A stretch of 64,000 nt of DNA, taken from contig CAKZOI010000070.1 in assembly GCA_937136395.1 (NCBI GenBank), forward strand, positions 1 to 64,000, in the 5' to 3' direction. The position numbers and the translations under genes were made by a program. This document shows positions 4,101 to 36,707 of this stretch, piece after piece (within the stretch, counting starts at the first letter, position 1; the number at the start of each line of letters is the position of its first letter). The stretch is from an uncultured Opitutia bacterium (GTDB lineage Bacteria; Verrucomicrobiota; Verrucomicrobiia; Opitutales; Coraliomargaritaceae). The notes under the pieces were generated by a model. It was not told the DNA's origin, searched no databases, and saw nothing but the letters and a program-made list of their open reading frames with translations.

Positions 4101-5939
4101 AGTCTCGGTGGTTTGCGTTTTGCTCGCACTAATACACAGCCACTTGATGGCAACAACTTACGTGATGTGTTTATTTATGATCGCAATGTAGTTGTGCCGA
4201 CAGTTCCCGAGGAAGAAAACCCACCGTTTGTTGCAATCACGAATCCGTCAGATGGAACAGCGGTATCGCTGACATCTCCGTTCTTTGTGAATGCAGGTGC
4301 ATTGGGCTATAACCCTGTGACAGGCTTATTCGATACAGATGGTATCGCATCAGTCACTTTCTTCGTCAACGGGGTTGAAGTGGCAGACGTAACCAAGCCA
4401 CCGTATTCTACCTTGATTACTCCACAAGGCTTAGGTGATTTACGTATCTTTGCGCTAGCAACGGATACGCGTGGTAATACAGTCTCTTCCCAAGCTATTC
4501 GAGTTGAGGTCCTTGCCTCACCATTTGAGGTTCCCGTGATTGAGATCACCAAGCCTGAAATTACGAATGGAACGATCTTCTCTGAAGGCGACACCATTAG
4601 TTTAGAGGCGACAATTAGGGCAACTGCGAACAGTTCTGAGTTCTTGCAGAATTTCGAACTGGCTCGTTTTGACATCTTTGTAAATGGCGTATCGGTGTTT
4701 ACTTCAACTGATGCTAGCGGGACGTATACGTTTGATTATGTTACTGATCTAACTGGTAATGTGACAATCAATGCGGCCGCTGTTTACCGTGATGAGATTA
4801 GAGGTTCGGATAACTTCATTATCGAAAATGTCTTTTCGGAGAGTGTGACGATCAATGTGAGCGTCTTTGATCCTATCGGCAGTGATAAGGACTTTATCAC
4901 AGACTCTTTCGTTCGCCTGTTTGGTCGTGTGCCGACCAGTAACGAAAGTGCAGATGGGGTTGCCGTGCTTGATGGATCTCTTGATTCTAGAGTCGCATAT
5001 ATTGTGGATTTACTATCCTCCAATTCCATCGAAACGAGTGAAGTCGCACTGCTGCTCTATCGTACATGGGTTGGTGAATGGCCTGACGGCGAGGAACTCG
5101 AACAAGCGCTTATTGATCTTCTCGGTGATGGAACTGGTATCACTGATGTGAATGCATTATCACTCGCCTTGGTTCCTGAATACGAAATTCGATTCAGTGC
5201 TTTGAATACACAACAAGGCTTTGTCCGCCAATTGTTTACCAACAAGCACGGTGTGGCTCCATCTGCACTGAGTGAAGTGCGTCTCTTTGATTCGGCAACG
5301 GGTGTAGACCAATTCCTTGGTGAAACGACTCAAGTCATTCCAGGCTACGGCGGTGATCTTATATCATTTGCCACACAGTTTGCCTTGGATAATGATATTA
5401 GTGGCTTCGTCGGTTCGAGTGGCTTACCGCTCTCAAACCTCCACCTCTATTCGATGCCAAATGACGTAACGGCCGATCTCAAGATCGCTCTGCTACTAGC
5501 GGCATTTCTTGGTGAGAATCCTACCGATCTATTGATTGACAGCTTTAGCGGCATGTCATTCGAAGAGGTGGTTAGAGATATTCTCAGTGAGTATTTGGGT
5601 GTTTCGACAAGTGCACTACCCGCGGCCGTGAATTCTGCTGTAAGCCTGGGTGCTGACTGGTACTACCTTGATTGGTTGGGCTCCTTCACTTACACTGGTG
5701 CATCGGCAAATTCATGGCTCTACAGCCTCGATTTAGGGTTCCTCTACCTGTTCCCTAGTTCGACTTCAAACGATGCGTGGTTATACTCGGAAGAGCTTGG
5801 TACCTGGTTATACACAAATTCTGGTCTGAACAATTGGTTCTACCACTGGAATGCGCAGCAATGGATGTATGTGCAGACAAGCAATGATCCTGGCGCGTAT
5901 GTGTATTTGTCTGGTTCTTGGCAATATCTGAACCCGTAA
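1176..5939 (+). CDS. Large exported beta-propeller/Ig-like protein with W/Y-rich C-terminal module
   Basis: 1587 residues with a signal peptide (MKYKSFCISTALFFMAAIGLLAEP). Residues about 385-620 hold repeats of the PD40/TolB type (SADGRYIAFESLATNL and variants), suggesting a beta-propeller; more copies lie near residues 850-990. Residues about 1010-1110 look like a bacterial Ig domain (ITNPSDGTAV, VTFFVNGVEVADV), followed by a second Ig-like unit. Residues about 1230-1480 are an alpha-helical stretch that resembles DUF4214-style modules (FVRLFGRVPTSNE). The last 100 residues form an aromatic module (WYYLDWLGSFTYTG, WLYSEELGTWLYT, GSWQYLNP) related to those ending several other proteins in the window. 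Likely surface-attached or secreted; no catalytic site was recognised. It follows the secretin gene by 44 bases and ends before a strong terminator. Confidence 0.85.
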   Translation: MKYKSFCISTALFFMAAIGLLAEPVITTSAISGQAGTYAPGDEITFTIDFENTVRTVNPNPNNGLSAAQANAQNAENTARGLSVSGVLAGFDIYGNPFEVPISTSGGNQVAPESTTTITGRVRVPLDGSFYNLPPGGYRIVLSYTYTHTDPGATSPVDGPTQTSQSNIFVDVPANIGLVDLSYPVKTYRGGDIIEITASIRNSAPPTDPNAVVRPLRSISAELFRTELFLSEDASVDRNNDFRLGAFSAFGDSAGSVDGSTPVRFVTVQGTPSVINTYSRDYVPQPDDGFLDVGETIVVTFEVLIPTNYTGTFFAAGFTDALGRISELEEGINATFDYQGDNILVDSFTPTFRIASTTTPITVPVSEVSDGNGTLVEPSNGVSDNPSMSEDGVWIAFQSFATNLDPDLPGNGNSNIYLRNRETEEITLISRSSGGVLGNRNSFNPAISADGRYIAFESLATNLVSGAQGAGSQIYVYDRLLQRVERVSISANGLAANGSCYTPSISADGRFVTYESLATNLDPAFEAALATSVSSQVFVHDRDVTNSGVLGLNYTTRLVSTYAGSPANLDVMTPKISLDGRAVVFASAASNLGVVNDGFITQIWSRELGPDGVPMGDTALVSVNTAGTAGGNGDSIEPAINGGPTATYGLQIAFASVADDLITDDTNEIADIFVRNYSVPASPVTTRVSVSNPRVAYGYISFIGPISSPPTADALPPLASANIPANQPLIGDTVTLNDGTNSVVFTFGLDVAIGANTAETRDNLVAAINNAEAAGSLNIVAYGSDAPTVNDNFNGLDGHNPTVQLMNTIPGAQGNQEILTNSLVLFDTDMTQGGTETGVSNDEFLGNPGGLVFGSLQPSLDRSGRIVAFRSLTGGISVVRDGARIFKPLSPTANTPRVGEIIRALNPNTSNVYFRDRDITGSGTLDIEENSDTARASVNKFGYRTAELSTTDSGSSRVPALSANGRFIAFASDSTSLGGLRFARTNTQPLDGNNLRDVFIYDRNVVVPTVPEEENPPFVAITNPSDGTAVSLTSPFFVNAGALGYNPVTGLFDTDGIASVTFFVNGVEVADVTKPPYSTLITPQGLGDLRIFALATDTRGNTVSSQAIRVEVLASPFEVPVIEITKPEITNGTIFSEGDTISLEATIRATANSSEFLQNFELARFDIFVNGVSVFTSTDASGTYTFDYVTDLTGNVTINAAAVYRDEIRGSDNFIIENVFSESVTINVSVFDPIGSDKDFITDSFVRLFGRVPTSNESADGVAVLDGSLDSRVAYIVDLLSSNSIETSEVALLLYRTWVGEWPDGEELEQALIDLLGDGTGITDVNALSLALVPEYEIRFSALNTQQGFVRQLFTNKHGVAPSALSEVRLFDSATGVDQFLGETTQVIPGYGGDLISFATQFALDNDISGFVGSSGLPLSNLHLYSMPNDVTADLKIALLLAAFLGENPTDLLIDSFSGMSFEEVVRDILSEYLGVSTSALPAAVNSAVSLGADWYYLDWLGSFTYTGASANSWLYSLDLGFLYLFPSSTSNDAWLYSEELGTWLYTNSGLNNWFYHWNAQQWMYVQTSNDPGAYVYLSGSWQYLNP
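5640..5936 (+). other. W/Y-rich C-terminal module, copy 1
   Basis: Codes for the last ~99 residues of the exported propeller protein. It begins LGADWYYLDWLGSF and contains spaced WLY/WFY/WMY motifs. It matches the general order of the modules at about 30040, 30490, 32851, 35620 and 36138 but is one of the more divergent copies. Confidence 0.6.
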
Positions 5940-5963
5940 TAGAGTCTCAGAGAATCTGATTTC

Positions 5964-6011
5964 TGCCCCGTAGCGGTGACTTACTTTAGTTCACGGCTGC
6001 GGGGCTTTTTC
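5964..6011 (+). terminator. Rho-independent terminator
   Basis: The arms GCCCCGTAGCGGTGAC and GTTCACGGCTGCGGGGC pair with few mismatches around a short AT-rich loop and are followed directly by a T run (ggggcttttt). It lies 25 bases after the stop of the large exported protein and separates it from the glycosyltransferase gene. Confidence 0.85.
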
Positions 6012-6031
6012 GTCTCTACTTTGGAGATTCA

Positions 6032-8022: not shown

Positions 8023-8077
8023 CGAGCGTCGCTTCTTGTTGGGTCGGGGAGGGATGGCCTCCGCGCCGTCAGCCGAG

Positions 8078-8103
8078 CTTACGCGTTTATTTATCAGCGT
8101 AAG
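8078..8103. repeat. Small hairpin in intergenic region
   Basis: Perfect 7-bp arms CTTACGC and GCGTAAG around a 12-base loop, 56 bases after the stop of the SCP2-like gene. No T run follows, so it is not a convincing terminator. The rest of the 220-base interval up to the antitoxin gene holds only the operator-like site described separately. Confidence 0.35.
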
Positions 8104-8206
8104 TCAAATGAGAGTGAAAACCCCTCCGTCTAACTACTTTTCTAAGGATAATGTCAATTAGACGAGACGAAGATGAGCAATAGGATGGATTCTTCGATGC
8201 ATCGAC

Positions 8207-8237: not shown

Positions 8238-8243
8238 TGCAGT

Positions 8244-10255: not shown

Positions 10256-11461
10256 ATGGCAGTCGGTATTTTTAACTTATTCAGTAAGCGCAACAGCTTC
10301 TTTCAGCGCTGTAAAGTCGATGAGGCCACCAAGCTTAGGCATAAATATGCGCCCTATTATGATATTTTCGACCGACAGGAAGGTTCCCGTGTTTGGCTGA
10401 AAGGCAAAGAGCTAATCCTCTTGAGTAGCAATGACTATCTCGGGCTGAGTGATCATCCGAGTGTGATCGATGCTGGTAAGCAGGCTTTGGACACTTGGGG
10501 TGCCTCGTCGACTGGAGCACGTGTGGCGAACGGAGGACGTGCGTATCATCGTGACTTAGAGGAAGCACTCGCGGAGTTTTTAGAAGTCGAAGCAGTGCAT
10601 GTGCATGCCGCTGGGTATTTAAGCTGCATGTCTGCGGTGCAGTCATTTGGTCAGCGTGGGGATCTTATCTTAGTGGATCGTAATGTGCATTCCTCTTTGT
10701 GGAGTGGTATTCACAGTTGCCCTGCTCGAGTCGAGAAATTCAGCCACAACAGTCCAGGCTCGCTTAAAAAAGCATTGAGCTATGAAGAAGCGGAGACTCC
10801 AAAGATGCTGGTTTTTGAAGGCGCATATTCAATGGAAGGGCATATTGCTCCGGTTGAAGAATTTTTGGAGGCGATCGAGGGGCAAAATACGATGACGATA
10901 ATGGATGACGCCCATGGCTTAGGGGTCTTGGGCGTCGGCGGCCGTGGCACGGCTCATCATTTAGGCGTCAATGGTCAGGTGGATTTGATTTGTGGAAGCC
11001 TATCGAAATCACTGGGGAGCACTGGTGGATTTATCGGTGGGGCGCAGTGCATGATCGAGTATATGCGAACTCATTCAAAGCAGACGTTGTTTTCGGCGGC
11101 ATTGAGTGGGGTGCAGGCTGCTTGTGCTGGAGAAGCACTACGAGTGTTACAGACGGAGCCGCAGTGCATTGCGCGACTTTGGAGGAACGTGAAACAATAC
11201 CGTGAGTTCTTGTTGGAGTTGGGCCTAGATACTTGGGATAGCGTAACGCCGGCAATTCCGATAGTGCTCGGCGACAAACGGAAAGCGTATTATTTCAGAC
11301 AAGCCCTATTAGAAAAAGGAGTCTATACAACGATGGCGATTGCTCCATCCGTACCACCGAAGAAAGAGTTGATTCGCACCTCCATTTCGGCGCGTCATAC
11401 AGATGAGGATTTGGATCAAATCTTTGAGGCGTTTAAGTATGCGGTGAAGAAGGTTCTTTAA
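10256..11461 (+). CDS. Alpha-oxoamine synthase (AONS / serine palmitoyltransferase-like)
   Basis: 401 residues. The family features are ND-YLGLSDHP at the substrate entrance (residues 59-68), ASSTGARVANGG (83-94), stacking His H145, MDDAHGLGVLG (216-226) and the PLP lysine K251 in GSLSKSLGSTGGFIGG. The enzymes decarboxylate an amino acid while condensing it with an acyl thioester, giving KAPA (BioF), aminoacetone precursors (Kbl) or 3-ketosphinganine (Spt). No other biotin genes are nearby; instead there is a dedicated ACP, a ketosynthase and an SDR within 4 kb, which favours acyl-ACP as donor and a sphingoid-like or related aminolipid product (inference). It overlaps the converging glycosyltransferase gene by 29 bases at the 3' end. 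Confidence 0.82.
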   Translation: MAVGIFNLFSKRNSFFQRCKVDEATKLRHKYAPYYDIFDRQEGSRVWLKGKELILLSSNDYLGLSDHPSVIDAGKQALDTWGASSTGARVANGGRAYHRDLEEALAEFLEVEAVHVHAAGYLSCMSAVQSFGQRGDLILVDRNVHSSLWSGIHSCPARVEKFSHNSPGSLKKALSYEEAETPKMLVFEGAYSMEGHIAPVEEFLEAIEGQNTMTIMDDAHGLGVLGVGGRGTAHHLGVNGQVDLICGSLSKSLGSTGGFIGGAQCMIEYMRTHSKQTLFSAALSGVQAACAGEALRVLQTEPQCIARLWRNVKQYREFLLELGLDTWDSVTPAIPIVLGDKRKAYYFRQALLEKGVYTTMAIAPSVPPKKELIRTSISARHTDEDLDQIFEAFKYAVKKVL

Positions 11462-12659
11462 ATTGGGAACGGGTGAATAATTCCACCAGTCGTGCCGAAT
11501 TCTCTGAAACTGCGAAGTGCTGTTTGACCCACTCAAGTGCGTTTGCCTTTATCGAATCTTGGAGTATAGGATTTGCCATTAAATGCTCGAATTGATGGCT
11601 CCATTCGATTGAAGATTCACCGCGTAGAATGATCCCTGTCACTTTGTCTTGTATGGCTTCACTGATTCCTGCCACATCGCGAGTTAGAATAGGTAGGCCT
11701 GCTGCCATGGCTTCGGCGAGGACATTTGGAAAGCCGTCTCGATCGCCTGAACTGGAGATTTTTCCAGTAAAGATGAAAATATCTGCCCACTGTTGGTAGG
11801 TTCTTTCAATCTCCGCATAGCTCTGGTGTCCGCACATTTCCACGCAGTCGCTTAATTCTAACCTTTTTATAATTGATTCAAGTGGTGAAGCTAAAGGACC
11901 ATGGCCAATTATTTTTGCACTAAATTGGATGTTTCGATTTTTCAACGTCTTGTAGAAATTGAGCTGTTCGGCATAGCCTTTTTTTTCAATCAGTCGTCCA
12001 ACACTGAGTAGGTGTCTCCTGTTGGAAGTTCGCCGTGCAGGATTACTATCGGGGATATTGGGGAGACTTCGTCGGATAAGGGAAATCGATTTTTCGGGAA
12101 TTCCTTTTCTAATGAGGTGTGATTGTGCACTTTGAGTGGAGGTGCGTATGAAGCGAGCACGTAGACCTTTCTCCTTAAGTAAGCAGTCCCCACCTGACCG
12201 ATGTATGTCGTAAGCGTGTGCCTCCATACTGTAGGGAATCCTTGTGAGCATGGATAGTGTGAGGGCAGCAGCGGCCGGTGCAGTCGCCCAGACCGCGTGG
12301 ATCAGATCAGGCGGGTTCTTACGAAAACGTTCTGCGTAGCTAATGGCGAAGGCGACTCCCAGTAGGTTTTCAAGTAGGTTTATGGGGCATTTAGGAGGAG
12401 AGTTATCGTACAGTTTGGATAGCTCGAGAAAGGCTTCGGGGCTTCGGATCAGTTCGTTTAGAAATCGTAGGGGCAGCCGGAGGATGTCTTTCAGGTCGAA
12501 GTGCTTTAAGGGGAATCGATTGAAAGTCGCACCGCATCCGCCAAATAAGGAGAAGAGCGAAAGATTCGTTGTGGGTAGATCGGCTAAGCCATTGATTTCC
12601 CGCTGCAGAAAGCTTTCCGATGGTTTAGGAAAGGTGGTGAACAGATAGGCAATACGCAT
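11433..12659 (-). CDS. GT4 glycosyltransferase
   Basis: 408 residues with the two-domain GT-B layout. The C-terminal half shows SVGRLIEKKGYAEQ, the strand-turn after the donor site, and the donor-binding stretch DGFPNVLAEAMAAGLP with the conserved glutamates. The N-terminus MRIAYLFTTFPKPSESFLQRE is the typical beginning of GT4 enzymes from polysaccharide and glycolipid clusters. It lies 44 bases downstream of the SDR gene on the same strand and is therefore probably last in the ACP-ketosynthase-SDR operon, which would couple a sugar transfer to the lipid product. Sugar and acceptor cannot be read from the sequence. Confidence 0.83.
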   Translation of the reverse strand: MRIAYLFTTFPKPSESFLQREINGLADLPTTNLSLFSLFGGCGATFNRFPLKHFDLKDILRLPLRFLNELIRSPEAFLELSKLYDNSPPKCPINLLENLLGVAFAISYAERFRKNPPDLIHAVWATAPAAAALTLSMLTRIPYSMEAHAYDIHRSGGDCLLKEKGLRARFIRTSTQSAQSHLIRKGIPEKSISLIRRSLPNIPDSNPARRTSNRRHLLSVGRLIEKKGYAEQLNFYKTLKNRNIQFSAKIIGHGPLASPLESIIKRLELSDCVEMCGHQSYAEIERTYQQWADIFIFTGKISSSGDRDGFPNVLAEAMAAGLPILTRDVAGISEAIQDKVTGIILRGESSIEWSHQFEHLMANPILQDSIKANALEWVKQHFAVSENSARLVELFTRSQFKEPSSPHT

Positions 12660-12703
12660 CGGTTAGCGGGCTGATTGGGGGAGATGGCAAAGTGTGGTTC
12701 GTC

Positions 12704-13522
12704 TTAGCGTTTGTAATACTCTCGAACCAATCGAAGCAGCCATTTACTCGGCAAGAGTCGGGGCCCCAGCGGTGCGATTACGGTCTGAAAGAAATTGCCT
12801 GACCGGAGTATCCCTGATTGCTCCTGCTTGAGTGCCTTAATCAGATCTGTCGCGGCTTTTCTCGGTGAAGGAGCACGTTTATGCTGTTGCTCGAGGAATT
12901 TCAAGTAATTGGGTTCCGTGGAACTCTGGCGAACCGTTTTAGTTTCAATAAACGGTGTATTGAAATCCCCTGGGCGAAAATCAATCACCTTGAAGGGGCT
13001 ATTGTCATCGAGCAGCAGGCTTTGAGTAAAGGAACTCAGCCCAGACTTGGCTGCATTGTAATAAGGCATATCTGGGATCGGTAGCTCGACAGCGAGTGAG
13101 CTGACTTGCACTAAGCAATTTCGCTTGTTTGGCGATTGTTTACAGAGCTTTTCAAAGAATCGGGACAGTTGAATCGGGACTTGTAGCATGAGCTCAAGTG
13201 TCGAATCTAGCTCCTCTTGCGTTGGTGACCAAGCCCCTCCGAGCAGTCCGCAACCAGCATTATTAATCCATAATTGTGGTGGCGTTTCTTCTATTTGCGC
13301 GAGTGCATTTGCGACTTCGTCGGCGTTTAGTAAGTCCGTGGGAATGTGCGTGTAGTTGAGAGGCGGTGAGGTGGGTGGAGTCCGGCTGATGCCCAAGACG
13401 TGAACGCCTTCATCGGATAGTTGTTTGGCGATCTCCAATCCGATTCCTGAGGAAGCTCCGGTGATTACGGCGTTGTGATAGCCGATTCGGTTCAGTGCGC
13501 TAGGTTTTGGAGTAAGGCTCAT
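12704..13522 (-). CDS. Short-chain dehydrogenase/reductase, possible 3-ketoacyl/3-ketosphinganine-type reductase
   Basis: About 272 residues from the ATG at 13522; a GTG at 13534 would add four. The Rossmann glycine motif TGASSGIGLEIAKQL and the catalytic YYNAAKSG (YxxxK) with the preceding serine in VQVSSLAVE are complete, as is INNAGCGLLGG. It is a classical SDR reducing a keto group with NAD(P)H. Context: ketosynthase and ACP genes are immediately upstream on the same strand, and an alpha-oxoamine synthase gene converges from the other side. Reduction of the ketone made by the oxoamine synthase, or of a beta-ketoacyl-ACP, are the two simplest roles (inference). Confidence 0.8.
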   Translation of the reverse strand: MSLTPKPSALNRIGYHNAVITGASSGIGLEIAKQLSDEGVHVLGISRTPPTSPPLNYTHIPTDLLNADEVANALAQIEETPPQLWINNAGCGLLGGAWSPTQEELDSTLELMLQVPIQLSRFFEKLCKQSPNKRNCLVQVSSLAVELPIPDMPYYNAAKSGLSSFTQSLLLDDNSPFKVIDFRPGDFNTPFIETKTVRQSSTEPNYLKFLEQQHKRAPSPRKAATDLIKALKQEQSGILRSGNFFQTVIAPLGPRLLPSKWLLRLVREYYKR

Positions 13523-13573
13523 GTCAATCTTCACGCTACGGATATAGCAATCAGTAAGGTTTAACTGGACGCT

Positions 13574-14845: not shown

Positions 14846-15204
14846 TCACTTCGTTGGTTTGTCGAAACCACTTGTCGTTTTTCAATAATGTATTTTTGCA
14901 GCTCTTTGAAGGTCTTTAGGTCTTTAATCGCGTCGTCCACGAGTTCAATTTCAAGGGCATCTTCAAGGGTCATGACGATTTCCACCATCGTCAGCGAGTC
15001 GATGCCGAGATCGTCAACGAAATGGGTGTTTTCATCGGCTTTTTCAAGTTCTTCTTCATAGGATTCGTCAATATTGCGGGCGACGATTCCACGTAAGAAT
15101 AGCTCCAGTTGCTTTGGCGCACCGCTTTCTTTGAAAGCATTGAGTGCTTCCTTTGTGCCCGGAGGGGATCTCCGTAATTCTTCTTCTAGTCGGTCGTCTG
15201 CCAT
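14842..15204 (-). CDS. Acyl carrier protein with N-terminal extension
   Basis: 120 residues from the ATG at 15204; a TTG at 15219 would add five. The carrier core is the C-terminal ~75 residues with the phosphopantetheine site S70 in DLGIDSLTMVEIVMTLE and the acidic helix II/III. About 35 residues precede the core (LRRSPPGTKEALNAF), which is longer than housekeeping AcpP (~78 residues). It is the first gene of a minus-strand run with the ketosynthase (4-base overlap), SDR and GT4. A pathway-dedicated ACP that feeds the ketosynthase and perhaps the alpha-oxoamine synthase is the natural reading. Confidence 0.87.
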   Translation of the reverse strand: MADDRLEEELRRSPPGTKEALNAFKESGAPKQLELFLRGIVARNIDESYEEELEKADENTHFVDDLGIDSLTMVEIVMTLEDALEIELVDDAIKDLKTFKELQKYIIEKRQVVSTNQRSE

Positions 15205-15225
15205 ATTAATTGATTGCAATATGTG

Positions 15226-24550: not shown

Positions 24551-27500
24551 ATGAAAGCTAAAAGCATAGTAACTACGATTGTCGTCGGACTTTGCTTATT
24601 AGCAGGCCTAAGAATGCTTACTCGGTCGTCTTCTGTCGATGAGTCGCCGACAGTGCAATTGTCCTCTCCAGAGGTGAGTTCGTTCGTGCCGGACGGTGGT
24701 GACTCATCAGCGACGGTGGGTCAATCGCAGGCGTCTGAGGCATTTGTTCAACAGGGGGGAGGAGTCGAGCCCGTCGCAGCTGAATTCACTCAAGGGGGAG
24801 TTCAATCTCAGGTTCCGTCAATGTCTGATCAGTCCACAGGGGCATCTCCGTCGCCTAGTATTGCGGACCTTTTGGAAGATGCCGATATGACGGACCCAAA
24901 AGTGCGGGCTCGTATTGTAAAGCAAGTTCAAGAGAAAGAATCAAATGATCGTCAATTGTTGATCGATAAGGCGAAGCAATTAGGGGTTCCGCTTCGTATA
25001 GAGCAACCCGATGGGCACATTGTGGAGCTCATTGGTTTCCAGGGGGACGAACCGATTTATCGCACAACGCTGAACCTGAGTGCTGCGATTTCCAGCGGTG
25101 CGAGTTCCGTTCGGGAGAGTCCCTACGGGTTGTCCGGTAGTGGCATTAAGGTCGGAGTTTGGGATGGTGGTTCGGCTCGTAGTTCGCATCAAGAGTTGGT
25201 CGGCCATACGAATTTACGTAATTCTGGTGCTCAGTTTTCGAATCATGCGACACATGTTGCTGGTACCATCGGTGCATCTGGAGTTCGAAGTAATGCCAAG
25301 GGAATGGCTCCTGGTGTAGAAATTGACTCCTATGATTGGAATAGTGATTTAAGCGAAATGCTTTCCGTTGGTGCGGCTGCGGCATCTGGTTCTGGGACTG
25401 TCTCGATATCAAATCACTCGTATGGGATTGTTGTTGGCTATACCTATGACGGCTCCAGTTGGCGTTGGTACGGGGATGGGACTTCTTCTAGCGATGTAGA
25501 AGAGGACTTTGGGCGGTATACATCGCTTACGCGAGATTGGGATGCTGTGGCCAATCAGTTGCCGTATTTAACGATCTTCAAGGCCGCGGGTAATGATCGA
25601 AATGATACACCTTCGACGGGGGACTTGGTCTATTCGCCTCAGGGGAATTTTTTGTTCAGTTATTCGAGTGGTTCGCGCCCTGGTGGTGATGGAGATTATC
25701 GAAATGGATATGAGTGTCAGGCCTATGCTGCAGTGGCTAAAAATATAATTACTATCGGAGCGGTTACGGATGCCGTTTCAGGAAGTAATCGCCAGGCCAG
25801 TGCGGCGTCTATGAGTTCGTTTTCATGTTGGGGCCCGACGGATGACGGTCGTATTAAACCGGATCTGGTAGCGACGGGGGTCGGAGTGGAATCATGCGTC
25901 GCGAGCAGTGATACTGCCTATTCGACTTATCAAGGCACGAGTATGGCGACTCCGTCTGCGGCAGGGTCTACTGCCTTGCTGGCTGAATTATATCGCTCCG
26001 AGTTCTCGGTAGGTTTCATGCCTTCAAGTTTAATGAAAGCTTTATTGATACATACGGCAGATGATCTTGGTACTGTCGGTCCAGATTATCAAAACGGTTG
26101 GGGACTCATTAACGTTCGTCGAGCTGCAGATCTTATATTGGCTCACAAAGCGAGTCCGAGTAGTCCTATAATTTTTGATGAGTCTCTAATTTCGAGTTCG
26201 CAGACCTTCACTCATGAATTTGATTGGGACGGGGTTAGCCCAATACGCGCAACACTTTGTTGGAATGATCCAGCAGGTGCGACGCGCAGTCAACATGATA
26301 GCCGTTCGCCCAGTTTAGTGCATAACTTGGATCTTAAGATGACTGCGCCAAATGGCCAAGTGTTTCAGCCTTACGTGATGCCTTTTGTCGGAAGTTGGAC
26401 TGTCGGGTCTATGGATTCAGCAGCAATCAACGGTAAAAATAACGTCGATAACATTGAGCAGATTTATCTCCCCACGCCATCGCAGGCGGGGCGTTATTCA
26501 GTAACTGTTTCACTGGATGGCTTGTTGACCAAGAGTCAGCAAGCATTCTCCCTAATTCTCTCGGGAGGTCAATCTTCTGGAAGTGATGAGAGCCGCATCC
26601 TCCGTCTGAGCGGGGACTTGGCATACGGGGCGATTCAGGTCGGGGCGGCGGCCACTCGTAATGTACTGATCGAAAACTTGGGTAACTCCGCTTTAACGGT
26701 TAGCGGAATCTCACTGCCAACAGGCTATTCAGGAAATTGGAGCGGCGTGCTTACACCCGGCGCGAGTCAGACTGTGCCCATTCAGTTCAGTCCTACTGCC
26801 ACTAGCAGCTATGGTGGCACTTTACGTGTGAATACAGATGCGACATCGGGTATTAATTCAGTAATTCTTTCAGGGTCGGGCGTGGCCGCCAATACCATTA
26901 ACACTCTAGTCAATGGGCAGTCGGTACCTGGGCTTAGTGGCACGGCTCAATCGGTTCGTTATTATCAGCTGTCAGTGCCTGCGGGGCAGTCGATATTAAG
27001 TTTTGAAATGACGGGTTCTGGTGATGCAGATTTGTATGTCCGATTCGGCAGCTTGCCCACTGTTGATGACTGGGATTTTCGTCCTTATTCAGGAGGAAGC
27101 GATGAAGCAGTGACGGTGAATGGCCCGCAGGCGGGTGTGTGGTATGTCATGGTTCGAGGGTATAGCAGTTATTCTGGACTCGAATTAAGGGCTGCTTATG
27201 AGGGCTCGTCTGTTGTCTCCAGAGTGATCGAGCTTCAGGGCGACTTGGATTTTGGTAATATTCCAGTGGGCGACTCGGTTCAGCGCACACTTATTATCCG
27301 CAATCTAGGCACCTCCGCTTTATTTGTATCGGGGCTGACGCTACCCACGGGCTTCTCTGGGACTTGGGCTGGCTCCATTGCGCCTGGGGCGCAGCAGTCA
27401 GTCGCGGTTACATTTTCGCCAGTCGCGGAGCAGGTGTATTTGGGCTCAGTGGCGGTGCTCTCAGACCAGACCTCTGGCGTGAATACGCGCCCTGTGAGTG

Positions 27501-30319
27501 GCACTGGCGTAATCACTCAAATCGCTTTGCAAAACGGTGCTCTAGTGGGGCCGTTTACTGGTTTGCAAGGCAGTATAAGTATTTTCTTTATTGATATTCC
27601 TTCTGGGCAGGCGAGTTTGGATATACAGTTGCAGGGTGGCTCGGGGAATGCGGATATTTACGTGCAACGTGGCACTGCGCCATCGCTATCCAATTATGAT
27701 CATAGAACGAATGATGGAGGCAGTAATGATGTGCTCACTATTCCCTCTCCTCAAGCAGGTCGTTGGTTCATCTTGCTGTATGCGGATTCTCAGTTCTCTG
27801 GGCTGCAGCTGATCGCGGAATATGAAGCTGCGGTTGTCAATACACATGCCATTCGTCTCACTGGAAATCTTGATTTTGGTGAGATCCGAGTGAATGACCG
27901 TATCTCGCGTGAACTGGTCATTCACAATGACGGCAATGTGCCGCTCACAGTTAGTGGATTACAGCTTTCGAGTGGCTTTTCTGGTAGCTGGTCGGGGGTG
28001 ATTCAACCTGGAGATTCGCGCTCGACGAATATCCAATTTCAACCGATCAGAGAAGGCCTGAATACAGGCTCTGTGATGGTTTTGTCAAACGCGACCAGTG
28101 GGATTTCAACCGCGACTCTACGCGGAGTCGGCATTGCAGATAGTGCGCCTCTTGAATTGGAGAATGGAGTGCCTTTGGCTGGGCTTGATGGCCAAGTCAG
28201 TAGTGAGCGACGTTATCTAATCGAAGTGCCCCCCAATGCTACGCTGCTAACGCTCGAGATTTTCGGTGGTGAAGGTGATACAGATTTATATCTGAGGCAT
28301 GGCGCGCCGCCGACGCTTTCTATTTTCGATTACAGACCCTACCTCTCTGGTAGCGATGAAAGTGTGACAATACAATCTCCTGAGTCTGGAATTTGGTATA
28401 TTCTGCTTCATGGTTATACCGCCTATTCTGGATTAAGTATCCGAGCGACGTATACGCTTGTCGGAGTTAGTGAGGCAGAATTCAGCAATTCTACCAGCAT
28501 CTCGCTCGCCGATTCTGGGGCGGCACAACCATACCCTTCGACCATTAATGTTAGCGGACTTGGTGGTACTGTCGAAAGTGTAAAAGTCGCGCTCAATAAT
28601 ATTTCACATACATACCCGGATGACATCGACGTGCTTTTGGTTGGTCCAAACGGTGAGTCGGTCATCCTTATGTCAGATGCGGGAGGCGGTAATGATTTGG
28701 TGGATGCTACCTTAGGCTTTGACGATGATTCCAATCAGGTACTTGCAGATTCTAGCCAGATTATCTCTGGAGTCTATCGCCCCACCAATTATTATACAGG
28801 AGACATGTTTCCTGGGGTCGTAGTCAACACGCCTGGACTGGCCCTAGACGTCTTTGAGGGGGCGGATCCTAACGGAATTTGGTCCTTGTATGTGTATGAC
28901 GATCTGGGCGGGGATAGTGGTGCAGTTGCGGGTGGTTGGACGCTTTTCATTGAGACTGATGCTGGTGCTGTTTTGCTGCCTAATTTGACCGATGGCTCAG
29001 GGACGCATACACTGACGCCTTCGGAGGCAGTTCGTGGTGAGACTATGGAATTTATGATCGATATTGCCAACACCGGAGGTTCGCCATCGAGTGCCTTTAC
29101 CGTTCGCCTGCAATTATCTACCGACGATTCGTTTACCGCAGCGGATACCACTCTGGTCGACATAAATATGCTGCCGATCAATCCAGGGGAATCTGTTCAG
29201 TTAGATACGACTTTCACCGTTCCAACTGTGCTCATCCCCGGCAGTTATTTCCTAGGTTGGCAGATTGATGCCTTGGATGAAGTATTGGAATCTGATGAAG
29301 GCGACAATTCCTGGTATCGAACCGTTCCGATCAGTATCACAGCTGGTGCGACGCCTGCTGATGACGCTTACGAAGAGAACGATACGATTGATGCGGCCTA
29401 TCTCTTGAATTCGGAGGGGCAATGGCTGTCCGATTTAGATGGTTTTGGTATACAAGCAGATGAAGATTGGTATGCGTTCTACGCCTATGCCGGATCGACC
29501 GTGCAGATTGACTGTGAGTTCGTCCATGCCGATGGTGATATTGATATCGAACTGTTTGATCCATTTGGCATTTCGCTCGATTTTTCTGAATCAACCACCG
29601 ATTTTGAGCAGATTACTATAAGCCTACAGGAGGCGGGCGTATATTATATACGCGTCTATTTTGAAAATGGTGGAAACGTTTACGACCTCCGTTGGCAGCT
29701 TAGCGGTTCTGGATTGGCACCTGCGCCAGTGTTGATTTTGGAAAACCTTCCAGGTGAAAGCTTTCTTGGAAACGAGTTTCTGACTGATTCTCGTTTCTCA
29801 TGGCAGGGTAATTTGGGCAATTGGGCCTATGAACGTTTGTCTGGAAATGTCGGTCGCATCGTGCAAACTTATGACTTCTACTTAAACGATCTGGATATCT
29901 ATCGCGAAGAAACGACCCTGACCTTTAGTTCTACGACCACAGGTAGCTTTGTATCACGTGGATACTATTTGGACGCGCTCGATTATGAGACAAGCGGAAC
30001 TTTTGATTTTCCGTGGTTAGCGGTCTCGGGCCCCCCCACCTGGGAGCCGCAAGGCTGGGTCTATTACGGCTGGCCTTATGCGTATTCGATTGCCGATGGG
30101 CGCTGGTATTTCTTCGATACCTCCAATCGGCAGTGGCGGGTGAATCTCGCCAGTGCGCAGTGGGGCGAGTTGTCCGATGCCACCGGTTGGCATTACTACG
30201 CCTGGCCGTATTCCTACTCGATCGACCAGAGCACCTGGCATTGGTACAATGATGATGTCCAGTGGGTGGTCGATTTGGTCTCCGGTATCTGGGCGCGTCT
30301 GGGTGCGTCGGGGAATTGA
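24551..30319 (+). CDS. Secreted multidomain subtilisin-like serine protease (S8) with W/Y-rich C-terminal module
   Basis: 1922 residues. A membrane signal (MKAKSIVTTIVVGLCLLAGL) and a propeptide precede the S8 domain at about 190-530, with D205 (VGVWDGG), H232 (NHATHVAGTIG), oxyanion N348 (FKAAGND) and S464 (YQGTSMATP). Downstream come three alternating pairs of an anchor/ASH-like domain (GDLDFGNIPVGDS type) and a PPC domain (about 675-1302), a proprotein-convertase P domain (about 1306-1473), a CARDB-like domain (about 1475-1597), another PPC domain (about 1601-1720), a ~100-residue beta unit and the W/Y-rich module from about 1825. All triad residues are present, so it should be active outside the cell, degrading protein or processing surface partners. 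It is expressed from its own promoter. Confidence 0.9.
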   Translation: MKAKSIVTTIVVGLCLLAGLRMLTRSSSVDESPTVQLSSPEVSSFVPDGGDSSATVGQSQASEAFVQQGGGVEPVAAEFTQGGVQSQVPSMSDQSTGASPSPSIADLLEDADMTDPKVRARIVKQVQEKESNDRQLLIDKAKQLGVPLRIEQPDGHIVELIGFQGDEPIYRTTLNLSAAISSGASSVRESPYGLSGSGIKVGVWDGGSARSSHQELVGHTNLRNSGAQFSNHATHVAGTIGASGVRSNAKGMAPGVEIDSYDWNSDLSEMLSVGAAAASGSGTVSISNHSYGIVVGYTYDGSSWRWYGDGTSSSDVEEDFGRYTSLTRDWDAVANQLPYLTIFKAAGNDRNDTPSTGDLVYSPQGNFLFSYSSGSRPGGDGDYRNGYECQAYAAVAKNIITIGAVTDAVSGSNRQASAASMSSFSCWGPTDDGRIKPDLVATGVGVESCVASSDTAYSTYQGTSMATPSAAGSTALLAELYRSEFSVGFMPSSLMKALLIHTADDLGTVGPDYQNGWGLINVRRAADLILAHKASPSSPIIFDESLISSSQTFTHEFDWDGVSPIRATLCWNDPAGATRSQHDSRSPSLVHNLDLKMTAPNGQVFQPYVMPFVGSWTVGSMDSAAINGKNNVDNIEQIYLPTPSQAGRYSVTVSLDGLLTKSQQAFSLILSGGQSSGSDESRILRLSGDLAYGAIQVGAAATRNVLIENLGNSALTVSGISLPTGYSGNWSGVLTPGASQTVPIQFSPTATSSYGGTLRVNTDATSGINSVILSGSGVAANTINTLVNGQSVPGLSGTAQSVRYYQLSVPAGQSILSFEMTGSGDADLYVRFGSLPTVDDWDFRPYSGGSDEAVTVNGPQAGVWYVMVRGYSSYSGLELRAAYEGSSVVSRVIELQGDLDFGNIPVGDSVQRTLIIRNLGTSALFVSGLTLPTGFSGTWAGSIAPGAQQSVAVTFSPVAEQVYLGSVAVLSDQTSGVNTRPVSGTGVITQIALQNGALVGPFTGLQGSISIFFIDIPSGQASLDIQLQGGSGNADIYVQRGTAPSLSNYDHRTNDGGSNDVLTIPSPQAGRWFILLYADSQFSGLQLIAEYEAAVVNTHAIRLTGNLDFGEIRVNDRISRELVIHNDGNVPLTVSGLQLSSGFSGSWSGVIQPGDSRSTNIQFQPIREGLNTGSVMVLSNATSGISTATLRGVGIADSAPLELENGVPLAGLDGQVSSERRYLIEVPPNATLLTLEIFGGEGDTDLYLRHGAPPTLSIFDYRPYLSGSDESVTIQSPESGIWYILLHGYTAYSGLSIRATYTLVGVSEAEFSNSTSISLADSGAAQPYPSTINVSGLGGTVESVKVALNNISHTYPDDIDVLLVGPNGESVILMSDAGGGNDLVDATLGFDDDSNQVLADSSQIISGVYRPTNYYTGDMFPGVVVNTPGLALDVFEGADPNGIWSLYVYDDLGGDSGAVAGGWTLFIETDAGAVLLPNLTDGSGTHTLTPSEAVRGETMEFMIDIANTGGSPSSAFTVRLQLSTDDSFTAADTTLVDINMLPINPGESVQLDTTFTVPTVLIPGSYFLGWQIDALDEVLESDEGDNSWYRTVPISITAGATPADDAYEENDTIDAAYLLNSEGQWLSDLDGFGIQADEDWYAFYAYAGSTVQIDCEFVHADGDIDIELFDPFGISLDFSESTTDFEQITISLQEAGVYYIRVYFENGGNVYDLRWQLSGSGLAPAPVLILENLPGESFLGNEFLTDSRFSWQGNLGNWAYERLSGNVGRIVQTYDFYLNDLDIYREETTLTFSSTTTGSFVSRGYYLDALDYETSGTFDFPWLAVSGPPTWEPQGWVYYGWPYAYSIADGRWYFFDTSNRQWRVNLASAQWGELSDATGWHYYAWPYSYSIDQSTWHWYNDDVQWVVDLVSGIWARLGASGN
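30025..30316 (+). other. W/Y-rich C-terminal module, copy 2
   Basis: Last ~97 residues of the subtilase. It contains two internal repeats of about 35 residues (GWVYYGWPYAYSIADGRWYF and GWHYYAWPYSYSIDQSTWHW), so this copy is a tandem variant. Confidence 0.6.
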
Positions 30320-30473: not shown

Positions 30474-31706
30474 TTAAAATTCGTGCTCGGTGATAATTTC
30501 GCCCGACTCGCCCCGGGCGAAGACGCGGGCACCGGGACTGCCATTCTCGAAGAAAAAGACCCAGCCGCCTTCTGGGCCGAATACGTAGAGCCAAGGATAG
30601 AGGGTTTCCGAAGTCCAGAGCCAACGGTTCAGCCCTGCATCCCAAAGATAGAGCCCCGCGCTGGGATCGTCGCCCGGTACGTATAGCCAGCCGTGCAACT
30701 CGTGGTAGACCCAGTCTTCACCAACCGGTTTAAAGCTTTTGAACCAGTCGAACCAGCGCCAGCCGTCTCCAAGTGCCACTGCCGTTTCATACCAAGGTGG
30801 CTGAACGAGAGGCGTGATTTGCAGCGTCCTTTCGGCAAGTTCACTGGTCCCACCTAGAGTCGTGCCCTCGAACTGCACTCGGTAGTCGCCTGGTAGGGCA
30901 TCCCCCGACACTTCAATCCTGAAGATCCCGTCGCTAGCATTGATATTGAAATAAGAGGCACCTCCGTCGGGAAATACGATATTTGAGATCTCGGGAGCTA
31001 AGAATGCTATTGAGGTCAGCGTTACGAAATTGGAGACATTCAATACATTATCGGTCAGCGGCACCTCGTTAAAAGGGGTACCTAGTTGCTGAATCAAATT
31101 ATAGCGTGTCAGCCCAGCAATCGCATCCACCACCGTCATGCCGCCTCCTACGACCTCACCGAAAACGGTGAACCCTCCGTTTTGTCCATCCAGAATCGTT
31201 GCATTATCAGCTAGATTGAAGAACCACTGGCTGGTGGCGCTATTTGGATCATTCCCAGATTTTGCCATCGCGATGGTTCCGCGAAGGTTACTTACATTAG
31301 GTTCGTTGACCACGGGATCATAAGCAGGCACCTCACTTACTAGAGCTTGCTCACCGGTAAGGTCGAAGAAATAACCGCCCCCTTGGATCACAAATGGACT
31401 GTTATCTTGTTTCAGCGCGCTGCGATGAAAGAAAGAATTCTGATAGAGTCCTCCCTCCGCATAGCGCAGAAAATTGGCGACCGTGGCCGGGGCGGTTCCA
31501 GGAGTGAGCTCCACCGGTATGTCCCCGAGACTGGTCTGAAACACCACCACTGGTGGCAGGTTAAAAAGATCATCTGCAGGGATCTCAAGCGCCTCGCCTG
31601 GTTCGAGTGTGAGAGGCTCGGTCTCGGCGAGGAGCGGTAAGGTAAGGCCAGAAGACAGAATAGTGAAGAATCGGGCAATGCGTTGTAATCTTAAGTGAAG
31701 CGACAT
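30474..31706 (-). CDS. Exported cyclophilin-type peptidyl-prolyl isomerase with W/Y-rich C-terminal module
   Basis: 410 residues with a signal peptide (LTLPLLAETEP at the cleavage region). The cyclophilin domain spans about 50-240: FQTSLGDIPVELTPGTAP, NSFFHRSALKQDNSPFVIQG with the catalytic Arg, RGTIAMAKSGNDPNSATSQW and GGFTVFGEVVGGG. It should catalyse proline isomerisation outside the cytoplasm. A short beta domain follows and the last ~95 residues are the aromatic module (GDGWRWFDWFKSF, WVYHELHGWLYVPG, RWLWTSETLYPWLYVFG). It converges with the subtilase gene and diverges from the CAP gene. Confidence 0.88.
   Translation of the reverse strand: MSLHLRLQRIARFFTILSSGLTLPLLAETEPLTLEPGEALEIPADDLFNLPPVVVFQTSLGDIPVELTPGTAPATVANFLRYAEGGLYQNSFFHRSALKQDNSPFVIQGGGYFFDLTGEQALVSEVPAYDPVVNEPNVSNLRGTIAMAKSGNDPNSATSQWFFNLADNATILDGQNGGFTVFGEVVGGGMTVVDAIAGLTRYNLIQQLGTPFNEVPLTDNVLNVSNFVTLTSIAFLAPEISNIVFPDGGASYFNINASDGIFRIEVSGDALPGDYRVQFEGTTLGGTSELAERTLQITPLVQPPWYETAVALGDGWRWFDWFKSFKPVGEDWVYHELHGWLYVPGDDPSAGLYLWDAGLNRWLWTSETLYPWLYVFGPEGGWVFFFENGSPGARVFARGESGEIITEHEF
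30490..30780 (-). other. W/Y-rich C-terminal module, copy 3
   Basis: C-terminal end of the cyclophilin. It is one of the two most canonical copies: GDGWRWFDWFKSF, then ELHGWLYVPG, LWDAGLNRWLWTSE and YPWLYVFGPEGGWVFFF. Confidence 0.7.
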
Positions 31707-31848: not shown

Positions 31849-33171
31849 ATGATATACCGAAATCGTCATTCAGTTTTGGGGCGCATCTTCTTTTTGTCTG
31901 TAGTACTTACGACTGCGAGTAATATAGACGCACAGGATCGTGTTGAGGTGGGGTTGGCTTATCGGGCTGAAAATAGCAGCGCTTCCGTATTTCGATCTGA
32001 AGCGTCAGTTGGACTTGTGGCAACTCAAGCGCAGGATCTGGTTTTTTACGATCATGGTAATCCGACGGATTTTGAGCAATTGATGTTGGAGCTGGTTAAT
32101 CGGGCTAGAAATGATCCGGGTGTTGAAGCGGCACGACTGGGGATTGGCTTAAACGACGGCCTGATTGCATGAACCATTGTAAACACTCCTAAACCGCCGT
32201 TAGCTCCCAATCTATTTTTGACTGCTTCGGCGCGTTCGCATACGGCATGGATGCTTTCGGATGACATGTTTTCACACACTGGCGAGGCGGGGTCCTCGCC
32301 TTCAGATAGAATGTTGCACGCGGGTTACGATATTTTGTCTGGAAGCTGGAGGACTGGTGAGAATATCGCTTGGTCGGGCAGCACGGGTGCGATCGATCTG
32401 GAGCAATTAACTCAAGAGATGCACGACGGCCTTTTTATAAGCTCCGAGCACCGAATTAATATTTGCGATGAGACATATGAGGAGATCGGTATCGGTATCG
32501 ACGCGGGGCTCTTTTTTGAGGAGGGGACTAATTGGAATGCTGCGATGGCTACTCAGAACTTCGCTCTTAGCAGTGTAACGCCCGGGCCGTTTGTTACTGG
32601 AGTCGTCTACGATGATACGAATGAAAACGATCTCTACGACCTTGGTGAGGGGGTGTCGGGTGTGGTCGTTACGGTCTCCGGCAGTAGTTACTATGGGCAG
32701 AGTGGCATTTCAGGTGGGTATGCTGTTCCCCTAACCAGTTATTCGGCGACGGCGGAGGTGACTTTTACTGGGAATGGTTGGGTGGAGCATCGAACTGTCT
32801 CGCTTGAACCGAATACAAGTCTGAAGGTTGATTTAGTCCTTGGGGCGGCGGTTTCTTGGTATGATGGGGCGTCCGTGCTCGGTGGTGGTTGGGTTTGGTT
32901 GAATTGGTTCGGTGCTTTTAACTTGACGAATGAACCTTGGATTTTTCACGAGGATCATGGCTGGCTGTACCCATTTGCTGAAGGTTCCGATGGGATTTTC
33001 TTCTGGGAAGGTGAAATGAACTCAATCATCTGGACCTCCGAAGTCGTGTATCCCTCGATTTACCGCTTCTCTGACGGCAAATGGCTGTTCTACCAGAAGG
33101 GATCGAAGAATCCGCGTTGGTTCGTCGATTTGCTGACGGGAGTATGGGAGCAGTGGTACTTTCAAGAATGA
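31849..33171 (+). pseudogene. CAP-domain (SCP/PR1) exported protein interrupted by an in-frame TGA, with W/Y-rich module
   Basis: One frame runs from the ATG at 31849 to the TAA-type stop at 33171, broken only by TGA at 32170-32172. Before the stop: signal peptide (SVVLTTASNIDAQ) and the start of the CAP fold (LMLELVNRARNDPGVEAARLG). After it: PKPPLAPNLFLTASARSHTA, DDMFSHTGEAGSSPSDRM and GENIAWSG, the core CAP helices with their histidine and glutamate, then a CnaB/SdrD-like beta domain (GVVYDDTNENDLYDLGEG) and the module (GGGWVWLNWFGAF, HEDHGWLYPFAEG). The stop sits where relatives commonly have GTI, so a single GGA to TGA change would explain it. The second part could restart at a TTG (32218) but without a signal peptide. 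Confidence 0.8.
32851..33150 (+). other. W/Y-rich C-terminal module, copy 4
   Basis: C-terminal end of the interrupted CAP protein. Canonical copy: GGGWVWLNWFGAFN, FHEDHGWLYPFAEG, IFFWEGEMNSIIWTSE, VYPSIYRFSDGKWLFYQKGS and PRWFVDLLTGVWEQW. Confidence 0.7.
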
Positions 33172-33235
33172 AAAGTATTGTTACCGCCGGGGGGTGGCTG
33201 TCGCTTGGTGGATTGTAAATTATCCTAGATACGGG

Positions 33236-33261
33236 AGTCAGAATACTGACTGCTTTTTTTA
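33236..33261 (+). terminator. Rho-independent terminator after the CAP gene
   Basis: AGTCAG and CTGACT pair around AATA and are followed by GCTTTTTTT. A wider ATCCTA/TAGGAT pair encloses the structure. It lies between the CAP gene and the converging methyltransferase-like gene. Confidence 0.65.
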
Positions 33262-33319
33262 GGATTATTGGCTGTGCTCCGATTTCGTAAAAATTCAATT
33301 CTTGAGAGTTAGTTTTTGG

Positions 33320-34279: not shown

Positions 34280-34397
34280 GGCTAAAATTGGCTTTCAGCT
34301 GAAGAGCTGTTTCCAGTTGAGGATAATACTGTATTAGCTTCTCGATTGAAATATTTGTTTCGATTTTAGGCCCAGATTCTTTGTATTCCAAGGAAAC

Positions 34398-35933
34398 ATG
34401 GATTACGGCACAACAAGAAGGAACACGATCCTAATCGCTGCGACGCACCGATCAGGTAGTTATTTGGCCTGCGATTGGTTGTCGCAGTTGGGCGGGATTC
34501 CCTTTGCTGAAGAGTATTTTAATTTTGAGCTTTTAGCCGCACGGCAGGAGTTGCGGCTTTCAGATGATCTACCGAGATTGGAAGTTCTGGAACGTATGAT
34601 AGCTCATCAAAGGGCCACTGCGGGGATTTTTGCTGTGAAAGCCATGTGGCCTGCATTTGAGAGTCTGTTCACAAAGATGGCGGCAAAGTTAACGATGCCA
34701 GTGGTGGATCCCTTAGCGTGGGCAATGGAGATTTTGGGAGACGTTCAGGTTTTATTTGTGCGCCGCCGAGATAAAGCAAAACAGGCGGTGTCTTTTGAGA
34801 AGGCGAAGCAGCAGGCAGTCTGGCGCAGCGAGAAACGTGATGCTTGTTTGGATGCTACCTTGGTATACAATTACCCGCGCATTTTGGATTGTTGGAAACA
34901 GATCCATCAAGATGAAGCTGCATGGTTGGCATTTTTAAATGAGCGGCACATCCCTTACTTTGAGATTTGGTATGAGGATATGGTGCAGGATCCGATGGGA
35001 GTCATCGGCGGTGCACTTCGTTCTCTTGGAATAGAACCTAATGAGAGTGTGACACTCCGCAGCCAGTATCAGAAGTTGAGTGGCGGTATAAATGCTGAGT
35101 GGCTGGAGCGTTTTCTGCGGCGGCACGTAGGCGCATTACCAATGGCCGATCAAGCTAATTCAGTTTTAGGGGCTCCTCTCCTTCGACGTGAGTGCGCGCC
35201 TTCAGTCCCGCTGGTTAATGTGAGATGTCTGAATGCAGGGCCTATTCAAATGCCTCCGGATTCGGCGTATGTTGTTAACTGTGAATTATCCAATCAAGGA
35301 TACGGTGAATGGTTGCCCGCCATAAGCCCAGTCGGGGAGGCTAACTATTGGGTAGAGCTGAGGGGGGAGGCGGAAGGCTTCAGCGGGAAACAGGCAGTCC
35401 TATGGCGTACGGAGTTGGAGGAGTTGCCTGGGCCGGGAGAGGTCGCTTCAGTTCCCTTAAGGCTAGGGCCTTCAATGGTATTTGATGACTTTTATTGCCA
35501 CTTGTTTTTTGGTTACCCCGGTGGTGAGTTTGAATGTGGAAAACGCATTCAAGTGAAAATCAAATTGGACGAGAAGTGGGACTTTCTGCGTCGTGTCTTT
35601 GGTGAATTATCTACTTCCGAGATGAGTAGTTGGGTCCGTGTGCCTGCATTGGGTGACATCTGGACCGATTCGTTTCCATTTATCTACCAGCGTGAGCATG
35701 GTTGGCTCTATGTAGATACGGTAAACTCGAGTCCTGGTATTTTTTGTTCGACTGATTTTGAGCTAGCTTATTTTGCCCTCCATCTTAACGCGCCGAGTAT
35801 TTATTTCGTGTGGATTGATCAAGAACCGCAAAGGCTGGAGTTCCTGGGGACGCGTGATGGTCGACGGGAATTTCGGAACCCCGAAACGGGTCAGAAGTTG
35901 ACTTTTGCGTTAAGTGCGCGGCCGAAAAGTTGA
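34398..35933 (+). CDS. Stf0-family sulfotransferase fused to a W/Y-rich C-terminal module
   Basis: 511 residues; an AAGGAA ribosome site precedes the ATG. Residues 1-250 follow the Stf0 (trehalose 2-sulfotransferase) pattern: LIAATHRSGSYLACDWL, the 5'-PAPS phosphosulfate loop; PFAEEYFNFELL; AVKAMWPAFESLF; and VLFVRRRDKAKQAVSFEKAKQ, the 3'-phosphate loop. A central beta domain (about 275-395) resembles the glycan-binding C-domains of Wzt proteins (VVNCELSNQGYGEWLPA). The end (about 408-500) carries the HGWLY-type module (YQREHGWLYVDTVNSSPGIF). There is no signal peptide, so the protein is expected in the cytoplasm where PAPS is made, which makes the module's presence unusual. Confidence 0.8.
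   Translation: MDYGTTRRNTILIAATHRSGSYLACDWLSQLGGIPFAEEYFNFELLAARQELRLSDDLPRLEVLERMIAHQRATAGIFAVKAMWPAFESLFTKMAAKLTMPVVDPLAWAMEILGDVQVLFVRRRDKAKQAVSFEKAKQQAVWRSEKRDACLDATLVYNYPRILDCWKQIHQDEAAWLAFLNERHIPYFEIWYEDMVQDPMGVIGGALRSLGIEPNESVTLRSQYQKLSGGINAEWLERFLRRHVGALPMADQANSVLGAPLLRRECAPSVPLVNVRCLNAGPIQMPPDSAYVVNCELSNQGYGEWLPAISPVGEANYWVELRGEAEGFSGKQAVLWRTELEELPGPGEVASVPLRLGPSMVFDDFYCHLFFGYPGGEFECGKRIQVKIKLDEKWDFLRRVFGELSTSEMSSWVRVPALGDIWTDSFPFIYQREHGWLYVDTVNSSPGIFCSTDFELAYFALHLNAPSIYFVWIDQEPQRLEFLGTRDGRREFRNPETGQKLTFALSARPKS
35620..35910 (+). other. W/Y-rich module, copy 5 (on a sulfotransferase)
   Basis: Encodes the end of the Stf0-type sulfotransferase. The diagnostic core REHGWLYVDT and the following LAYFALHLNAPSIYFVW keep the spacing of the canonical copies but with fewer tryptophans. 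Confidence 0.55.
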
Positions 35934-36053
35934 GAGGATTATGAGCAGAATTTACGGATGTAATGTTCTTTTGGGGGTAGAAATCGAAATTGACAAAGTC
36001 TTTACGATTGGTTTCTTATGGGTTCTATGAAATTAATTAATAATCTAAAGTAG

Positions 36054-36707
36054 GTGTTTTTATTTGCGCTCGCCTCTTGTGCTGGTGCTTTTACTGTTAA
36101 TGCGCAGTCTTCTGGGATTGATGTTGATGCGGAATTGGGCGATGGATGGTCCTACAGTGACGTCTACGGTGCATTTTATGAATTGGGAAATGGCTGGAAT
36201 TACAGTGATTGGTTTGGGACTTTTTACACGCAGGACGGGTCTTGGTTCTGGCGACCTGGCTTTGGCTGGACCTATCTTTACGACGGTGCAACTTTAACGA
36301 ATTGGTGGATTTATGTTTACGAACTCTCCGACTGGTGCTGGACGAATAACGATGTGTATCCATTTGTTAATTCTATAAATGCGGGTGGTTATGTATGGTT
36401 TGATGAAGATATTCTTGGCTTCTACAACTCGAATACCGGACAATATGCATCCGCAGGTGTGTATAACGTGGATATTATTTTTACGAACTTAGGCTATGAT
36501 CAGGCAACTTGGAATGCGATTACTGATAGCGTGCGCACGAACCTCATGTCATTGGGTGGTGGGAATTTTTATCGGGTTGAAACGTCAGGGAATAGCTTTA
36601 CGCTTCGGTATAATTTTGGAACTGCAATCAATGCCAATGCGGTTCGTAATGCGTTGGCAGCGCTTAACATTAATGTTGCTGGCTTTTATAGTATTACCGT
36701 TCAGTAA
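36054..36707 (+). CDS. Small exported W/Y-rich module protein, signal peptide interrupted by in-frame TAG
   Basis: 217 residues from the GTG at 36054. The frame continues upstream through TAG (36051-36053) to ATG at 36027 or 36018, giving MKLINNLK-stop-VFLFALASCAGAFTVNAQS, a perfect bacterial signal peptide if the stop were a sense codon. From GTG alone the signal lacks its positively charged start. The mature protein begins with two module-like units (LGDGWSYSDVYGAFY and LGNGWNYSDWFGTFYTQDG), continues through SDWCWTNNDVYPF and ends with a ~70-residue alpha/beta tail (TWNAITDSVRTNLMSLGGGN). It is nearly a stand-alone version of the module that ends five neighbours. It may be a recent pseudogene or start poorly from the GTG. 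Confidence 0.6.
   Translation: MFLFALASCAGAFTVNAQSSGIDVDAELGDGWSYSDVYGAFYELGNGWNYSDWFGTFYTQDGSWFWRPGFGWTYLYDGATLTNWWIYVYELSDWCWTNNDVYPFVNSINAGGYVWFDEDILGFYNSNTGQYASAGVYNVDIIFTNLGYDQATWNAITDSVRTNLMSLGGGNFYRVETSGNSFTLRYNFGTAINANAVRNALAALNINVAGFYSITVQ

Follow-up and report, generated by a model that had tools for sequence, protein, structure and literature searches.

A portable aromatic-rich domain that probably clips exported verrucomicrobial proteins to a surface sugar coat

Why would a propeller protein, a cyclophilin, a CAP protein, a sulfotransferase, and a small exported protein, all encoded close together in the genome of an uncultured Opitutia bacterium, share one segment that is rich in tryptophan and tyrosine? 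The initial annotation of this 64,000-nucleotide stretch of DNA (the window) had listed six copies of such a module, the sixth on a subtilase. We aligned 42 copies of the module from the window's genome and from other genomes, built a profile from just the 38 copies that lie outside the window, and searched all six reading frames of the window with it. This profile recovered five of the six claimed copies, with E values from 7e-30 to 2.5e-6, and nothing else notable in the window. Composition-preserving shuffles (500 per copy) never reached the real score. The subtilase was rejected as a sixth copy: when we searched the whole genome with the full profile, its E value was above 10, and the 5.5 bits that it scored in the window came from the second half of its tail only.

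The highest-scoring copy (99.3 bits, E = 7e-30) is at positions 32854-33168 of the + strand, at the C-terminus of the CAP protein (reading frame 31849-33171). This gene is split into two frames by an in-frame TGA at 32170-32172, which could be a nonsense mutation, recoding, or an assembly error. On the - strand, the copy at 30477-30797 (88.0 bits, E = 2e-26) ends an exported cyclophilin (gene 30474-31706) that matches Pro_isomerase (PF00160) in its N-terminal part. The 1587-residue propeller protein (gene 1176-5939) ends in a copy at 5631-5936 of the + strand (52.9 bits, E = 2e-15), and the Stf0 sulfotransferase (gene 34398-35933) ends in a divergent copy at 35604-35930 of the + strand (23.8 bits, E = 2.5e-6; the match in the genome-wide search covers 35619-35774). 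These four copies are C-terminal, as the initial annotation had it. The fifth is not: in the small protein (gene 36054-36707), the module at 36171-36449 of the + strand (54.3 bits, E = 8e-16, plus a weak partial match upstream) directly follows the signal peptide, and a C-terminal half of about 85 residues lies beyond it. The first hairpin of the module is duplicated in this protein (ELGDGWSYSDVYGAFY / ELGNGWNYSDWFGTFY). Because the 3.18-Mb host genome has no further copies, chance would hardly place all five within some 30 kb (probability about 4e-8).

The subtilase (gene 24551-30319) has a different W-rich repeat tail, at 29972-30316 of the + strand, which belongs to a small family of its own. 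Its pattern is GW.Y..WPY.YS....W.WY....QWVVDL..GIW.RLG. This second type of tail recurs with 50% identity in a genome of another family (G122, locus L270) and on subtilases of family f2 (L271-L273). It is rarer than the module and was found in 5 of the 273 genomes of the order.

The module is about 95 residues long, and W, Y, and F together make up 26% of it. The aromatic residues are regularly spaced and their columns near-fixed, as the consensus illustrates: GW..S.WFG.F....PWIYH..HGWLY.......IWLWD..L.WLWTS...YPYLY......WLYY.......R.FYD..T..W. We collected 145 proteins with the module, counting one copy per protein, and the 3' end of the gene is known for 134 of them. Counting a copy as C-terminal when at most 25 residues of protein follow it, 112 of the 134 are C-terminal. 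Another 14 lie close to the N-terminus (in most cases immediately behind the signal peptide), and eight are internal. AlphaFold2, run with nine sequences on the module of the CAP protein, predicts an all-beta domain of eleven short strands (pLDDT 94.2, pTM 0.83).

The initial annotation knew of no named family for these tails, and our searches support this. Comparing the 42 copies with Pfam and NCBIfam gave scattered weak matches only (best E = 0.017 and 0.02, respectively), and a search of PDB sequences gave one match, at E = 1.5, which is not credible. A literature search that covered few subscription journals found no account of the module. Using the predicted structure, Foldseek found no convincing match in the PDB (best E = 1.3) and nothing closer than E = 0.35 in a library of viral folds; a second fold comparison, by VIA, gave Z scores of at most 4.4 with 77 or fewer residues aligned. 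Scans of viral contigs likewise found no relative. For a predicted model, the absence of a convincing PDB match does not prove that the fold is new. The module is real, is predicted to fold by itself, and is named in none of the searched databases, and it is a good target for structure determination because the model is confident and has no clear match in the PDB.

A weaker profile built from three copies found the module in 77 of the 273 genomes from the same order. In a sample of the whole phylum, 9 of 388 genomes have it, and two of these are outside the order. The named relatives that carry it are Opitutales, Opitutia, and other Verrucomicrobia metagenome-assembled genomes. The initial annotation's mention of similar tails in verrucomicrobial proteins is supported, mainly within one order. 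Within the order, use of the module varies. Three genomes that were searched exhaustively have 11, 26, and 59 copies. In the window's own family the distribution is patchy (5 of 44 genomes), and the two sister species sampled (G009 and G010) have neither the module nor Wzm, the permease discussed below.

The proteins that carry the module are diverse. Pfam scans of two sets of hosts (63 and 69 proteins) matched 63 and 49 families, including cadherin, Ig, LRR, trypsin, subtilase, CAP, cyclophilin, FGE-sulfatase, multicopper oxidase, chondroitinase B, endonuclease I, and outer-membrane cytochromes. By a crude test, 83 of 99 hosts begin with a signal-peptide-like sequence, versus 75 of 146 neighboring genes. 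Most of the 16 hosts that failed this test have a signal peptide by eye, and three of them are sulfotransferases, which are the sole clear non-exported hosts. The module can also be exchanged. Orthologues of the propeller protein in G032 and G036 keep it, and those in G033 and G022 match the window's protein as far as about residue 1472-1492, beyond which their tail is a different one. This number of host families, the single copy per protein, and the swapped tail strongly support the initial annotation's proposal that the module is portable. The replacement tail (in L154 and L156) has the motif DDDADxDGxxNLxEIALGSDP and is possibly another anchoring tail. A secretin gene adjoins the propeller gene in the window and also adjoins the G033 orthologue (83% identity).

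The sulfotransferase leads to the question of what the module might bind. Its catalytic region, at 34398-35180 of the + strand, matches Stf0 (PF09037, E = 3.8e-25), and the protein does not have a signal-peptide-like start. A structure prediction for the full protein from its single sequence was unusable (pLDDT 38). G036 encodes an orthologue that is 42% identical over its full length (503 residues) and whose module is degenerate in the same way, and the Stf0 protein in G122, which belongs to another family (f21), ends in a canonical copy. Since one relative keeps the degenerate form and the other carries a canonical copy, the copy in the window is real, though divergent.

Stf0 proteins with the module were found in families f1 (G000 and G036) and f21 (G122), each time within a polysaccharide locus. 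The window's locus encodes a Wzm-type ABC-2 polysaccharide export permease (47559-48401, + strand; PF01061), whose homologues elsewhere show linkage to module genes; a Wzt-type ATPase with a Wzt_C domain (44743-46110, - strand; PF00005 and PF14524); several glycosyltransferases; a methyltransferase; and a second sulfotransferase, without the module (42684-44759, - strand; PF13469). It also encodes a protein that combines a GT2 glycosyltransferase with a HAD domain (39692-42733, - strand; PF00535 and PF00702), and this protein is kept near the Stf0 genes with the module in G036 and G122 (34-36% identity). In G036, the Stf0 gene adjoins both the GT2-HAD gene and another module gene. In G122, the homologous locus includes an AOS enzyme (53% identity) and GT4, Wzm, Wzt, and GT2-HAD genes.

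Outside the window, the link between the module and polysaccharide export is uneven. Of 40 regions centered on Wzm, 28 include a module gene, as compared to 2 of 20 control regions from the same contigs (Fisher test, P = 9e-6). Most of this comes from family f2: in 22 of its genomes, a module gene lies on the same strand just ahead of the Wzm match, with a gap of about 40-100 bp, and in another (G261) the gap is about 1.4 kb. Where we checked, the host is a trypsin-like protease (by Pfam for L218, and seven of these proteins were compared with each other, at about 38-52% identity); this protease directly upstream of Wzm is seen at f2 loci including L210-L225. The f2 cases go back to a single ancestral arrangement, and a protease in a Wzm operon is not by itself a sign of glycan binding. 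Outside f2, 5 of 17 Wzm regions have a module gene, versus about 2 expected (P about 0.06). In G300, which is outside the order, three module genes and Wzt/Wzm-like genes lie about 10 kb apart or less.

We also asked whether Wzm and the module occur in the same genomes. They do (54/23/45/151 genomes of the order with both, the module only, Wzm only, and neither; P = 9e-13), and also if genera are counted (21/8/24/35; P = 0.005), with phylogeny ignored in both tests. The exceptions include the 23 genomes with the module and no Wzm match, family f13, with Wzm and no modules, and family f24, with modules and no Wzm match. We rejected the idea that modules generally lie beside polysaccharide export genes: neither Wzm nor a glycosyltransferase was nearby in 20 regions surrounding a copy, most of which came from genomes with few copies.

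Taken together, we think that the module probably clips exported proteins to the sugar coat on the cell's surface. This would fit the initial annotation's idea of a targeting, anchoring, or glycan-binding unit, which is plausible and gains new circumstantial support from the Stf0 fusions and the Wzm linkage. More specifically, the ~95-residue all-beta module would attach noncovalently to a polysaccharide that the cell itself produces, either on its surface or extracellularly. Hosts such as the proteases, CAP protein, cyclophilin, adhesin-like proteins, propeller, and oxidases would be exported via their signal peptides and then be kept in the sugar coat by the module, which mostly sits at an end of the mature chain. 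Sulfotransferases without a signal peptide use cytoplasmic PAPS. In these, the module would keep the enzyme bound to its acceptor polysaccharide while this is still in the cytoplasm, ahead of Wzm/Wzt export. The presence of the module on both exported proteins and these sulfotransferases suggests a ligand that occurs outside the cell as well as in the cytoplasm, and the simplest candidate would be a polysaccharide that is made inside and then exported. The identity of the ligand as a glycan, and more narrowly as the Wzm/Wzt product, is inferred, and so is the step from binding to surface retention. Comparison with folds in the PDB gave no match that would back a carbohydrate-binding class. We would put the chance that the module is a noncovalent, glycan-binding surface-retention domain at about even.

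A portable attachment domain fits the diversity of the cargo, the position at chain ends, the single copy per protein, and the exchange of tails. Some of these observations would be expected under other explanations as well. The C-terminal position in 112 of 134 proteins, the diverse exported cargo, the many copies per genome, and the swappable tail would also suit an export or sorting signal that some undiscovered secretion machine in the outer membrane reads. Type IX secretion offers a precedent, since its cargo carries beta-rich C-terminal domains (Por_Secre_tail) that are found on many exported proteins. However, a C-terminal secretion signal accounts poorly for the copies near the N-terminus, most of them right after a signal peptide, for the internal copies, and for the sulfotransferases that lack a signal peptide. 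Also, none of the sorting-domain models in Pfam or NCBIfam matched members of our 42-copy alignment. We consider this explanation unlikely.

Alternatively, the module might dock its hosts, as dockerins do, to one surface protein that they share, such as a scaffold or an S-layer-like partner, instead of to a glycan. A single copy on varied exported hosts also fits this, and the weakness of the Wzm linkage outside f2 is in its favor, but it leaves both the Stf0 fusions in polysaccharide loci and the protease-Wzm arrangement unexplained, and we think it improbable. Finally, the compact predicted fold at chain ends, with no ligand known, could be a passive end-cap or stability domain of exported proteins. 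Against this, the aromatic columns hardly vary between hosts that are very different, and the module is used densely in some genomes and is absent from sister species, which suggests a shared binding partner instead. An end-cap without a specific ligand seems very unlikely.

Up to 59 proteins per genome, in the members of the order that have the module, carry a domain that the searched libraries do not name. If it is a surface-retention domain, then much of the surface proteome of these bacteria would be identified at once, together with a concrete hypothesis for the ligand (the Wzm/Wzt polysaccharide) and a noncovalent counterpart to PEP-CTERM sorting. A broader proposal is that the module is an undescribed fold that serves the order as its general noncovalent attachment of proteins to a capsule of sulfated, Wzm/Wzt-exported polysaccharide, with the same domain keeping the sulfotransferase on the growing polymer in the cytoplasm; we regard this as possible but doubtful.

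Several known systems are similar in part. Choline-binding or cell-wall-binding repeats (CW_binding_1) are aromatic-rich beta-hairpins that retain proteins at the surface and are portable. The module resembles them in its aromatic content, its likely beta-hairpin character, its portability, and its probable role in surface retention, but it is one compact domain and not a tandem array, it occurs here in Verrucomicrobiota, and none of the 42 copies has a match to them in Pfam. Carbohydrate-binding modules and Wzt_C are portable beta-domains that bind polysaccharide. Wzt_C is even encoded in the same locus of the window, but the searches found no sequence match of the module to them and no convincing fold match in the PDB. 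The PEP-CTERM/exosortase system handles many diverse exported proteins per genome and is tied to exopolysaccharide genes (PMC1569441). It is like the module in that one C-terminal element is common to many diverse proteins with signal peptides, in the link to exopolysaccharide genes, and in being present in Verrucomicrobia. The two coexist in all eight genomes that we checked. However, the PEP-CTERM element is a short Pro-Glu-Pro motif with a transmembrane helix and a basic cluster, as opposed to a folded domain of ~95 residues that is sometimes N-terminal, and a pattern search found a PEP-CTERM-like tail on none of the 134 module proteins with a known 3' end.

The local GC content has no sharp island in the window. 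Besides the polysaccharide genes, the window has a lipid-type cluster (10256-15219) that adjoins glycosyltransferases and encodes an aminotransferase similar to AOS/serine palmitoyltransferase, an SDR, a ketoacyl synthase, and an acyl carrier protein; the AOS gene of this cluster is the one conserved near the Stf0 gene in G122. Farther along, a frame that resembles AMP ligases (56233-58119) runs into sequence like that of a REP-associated tyrosine transposase, which by eye is a possible fusion or insertion.
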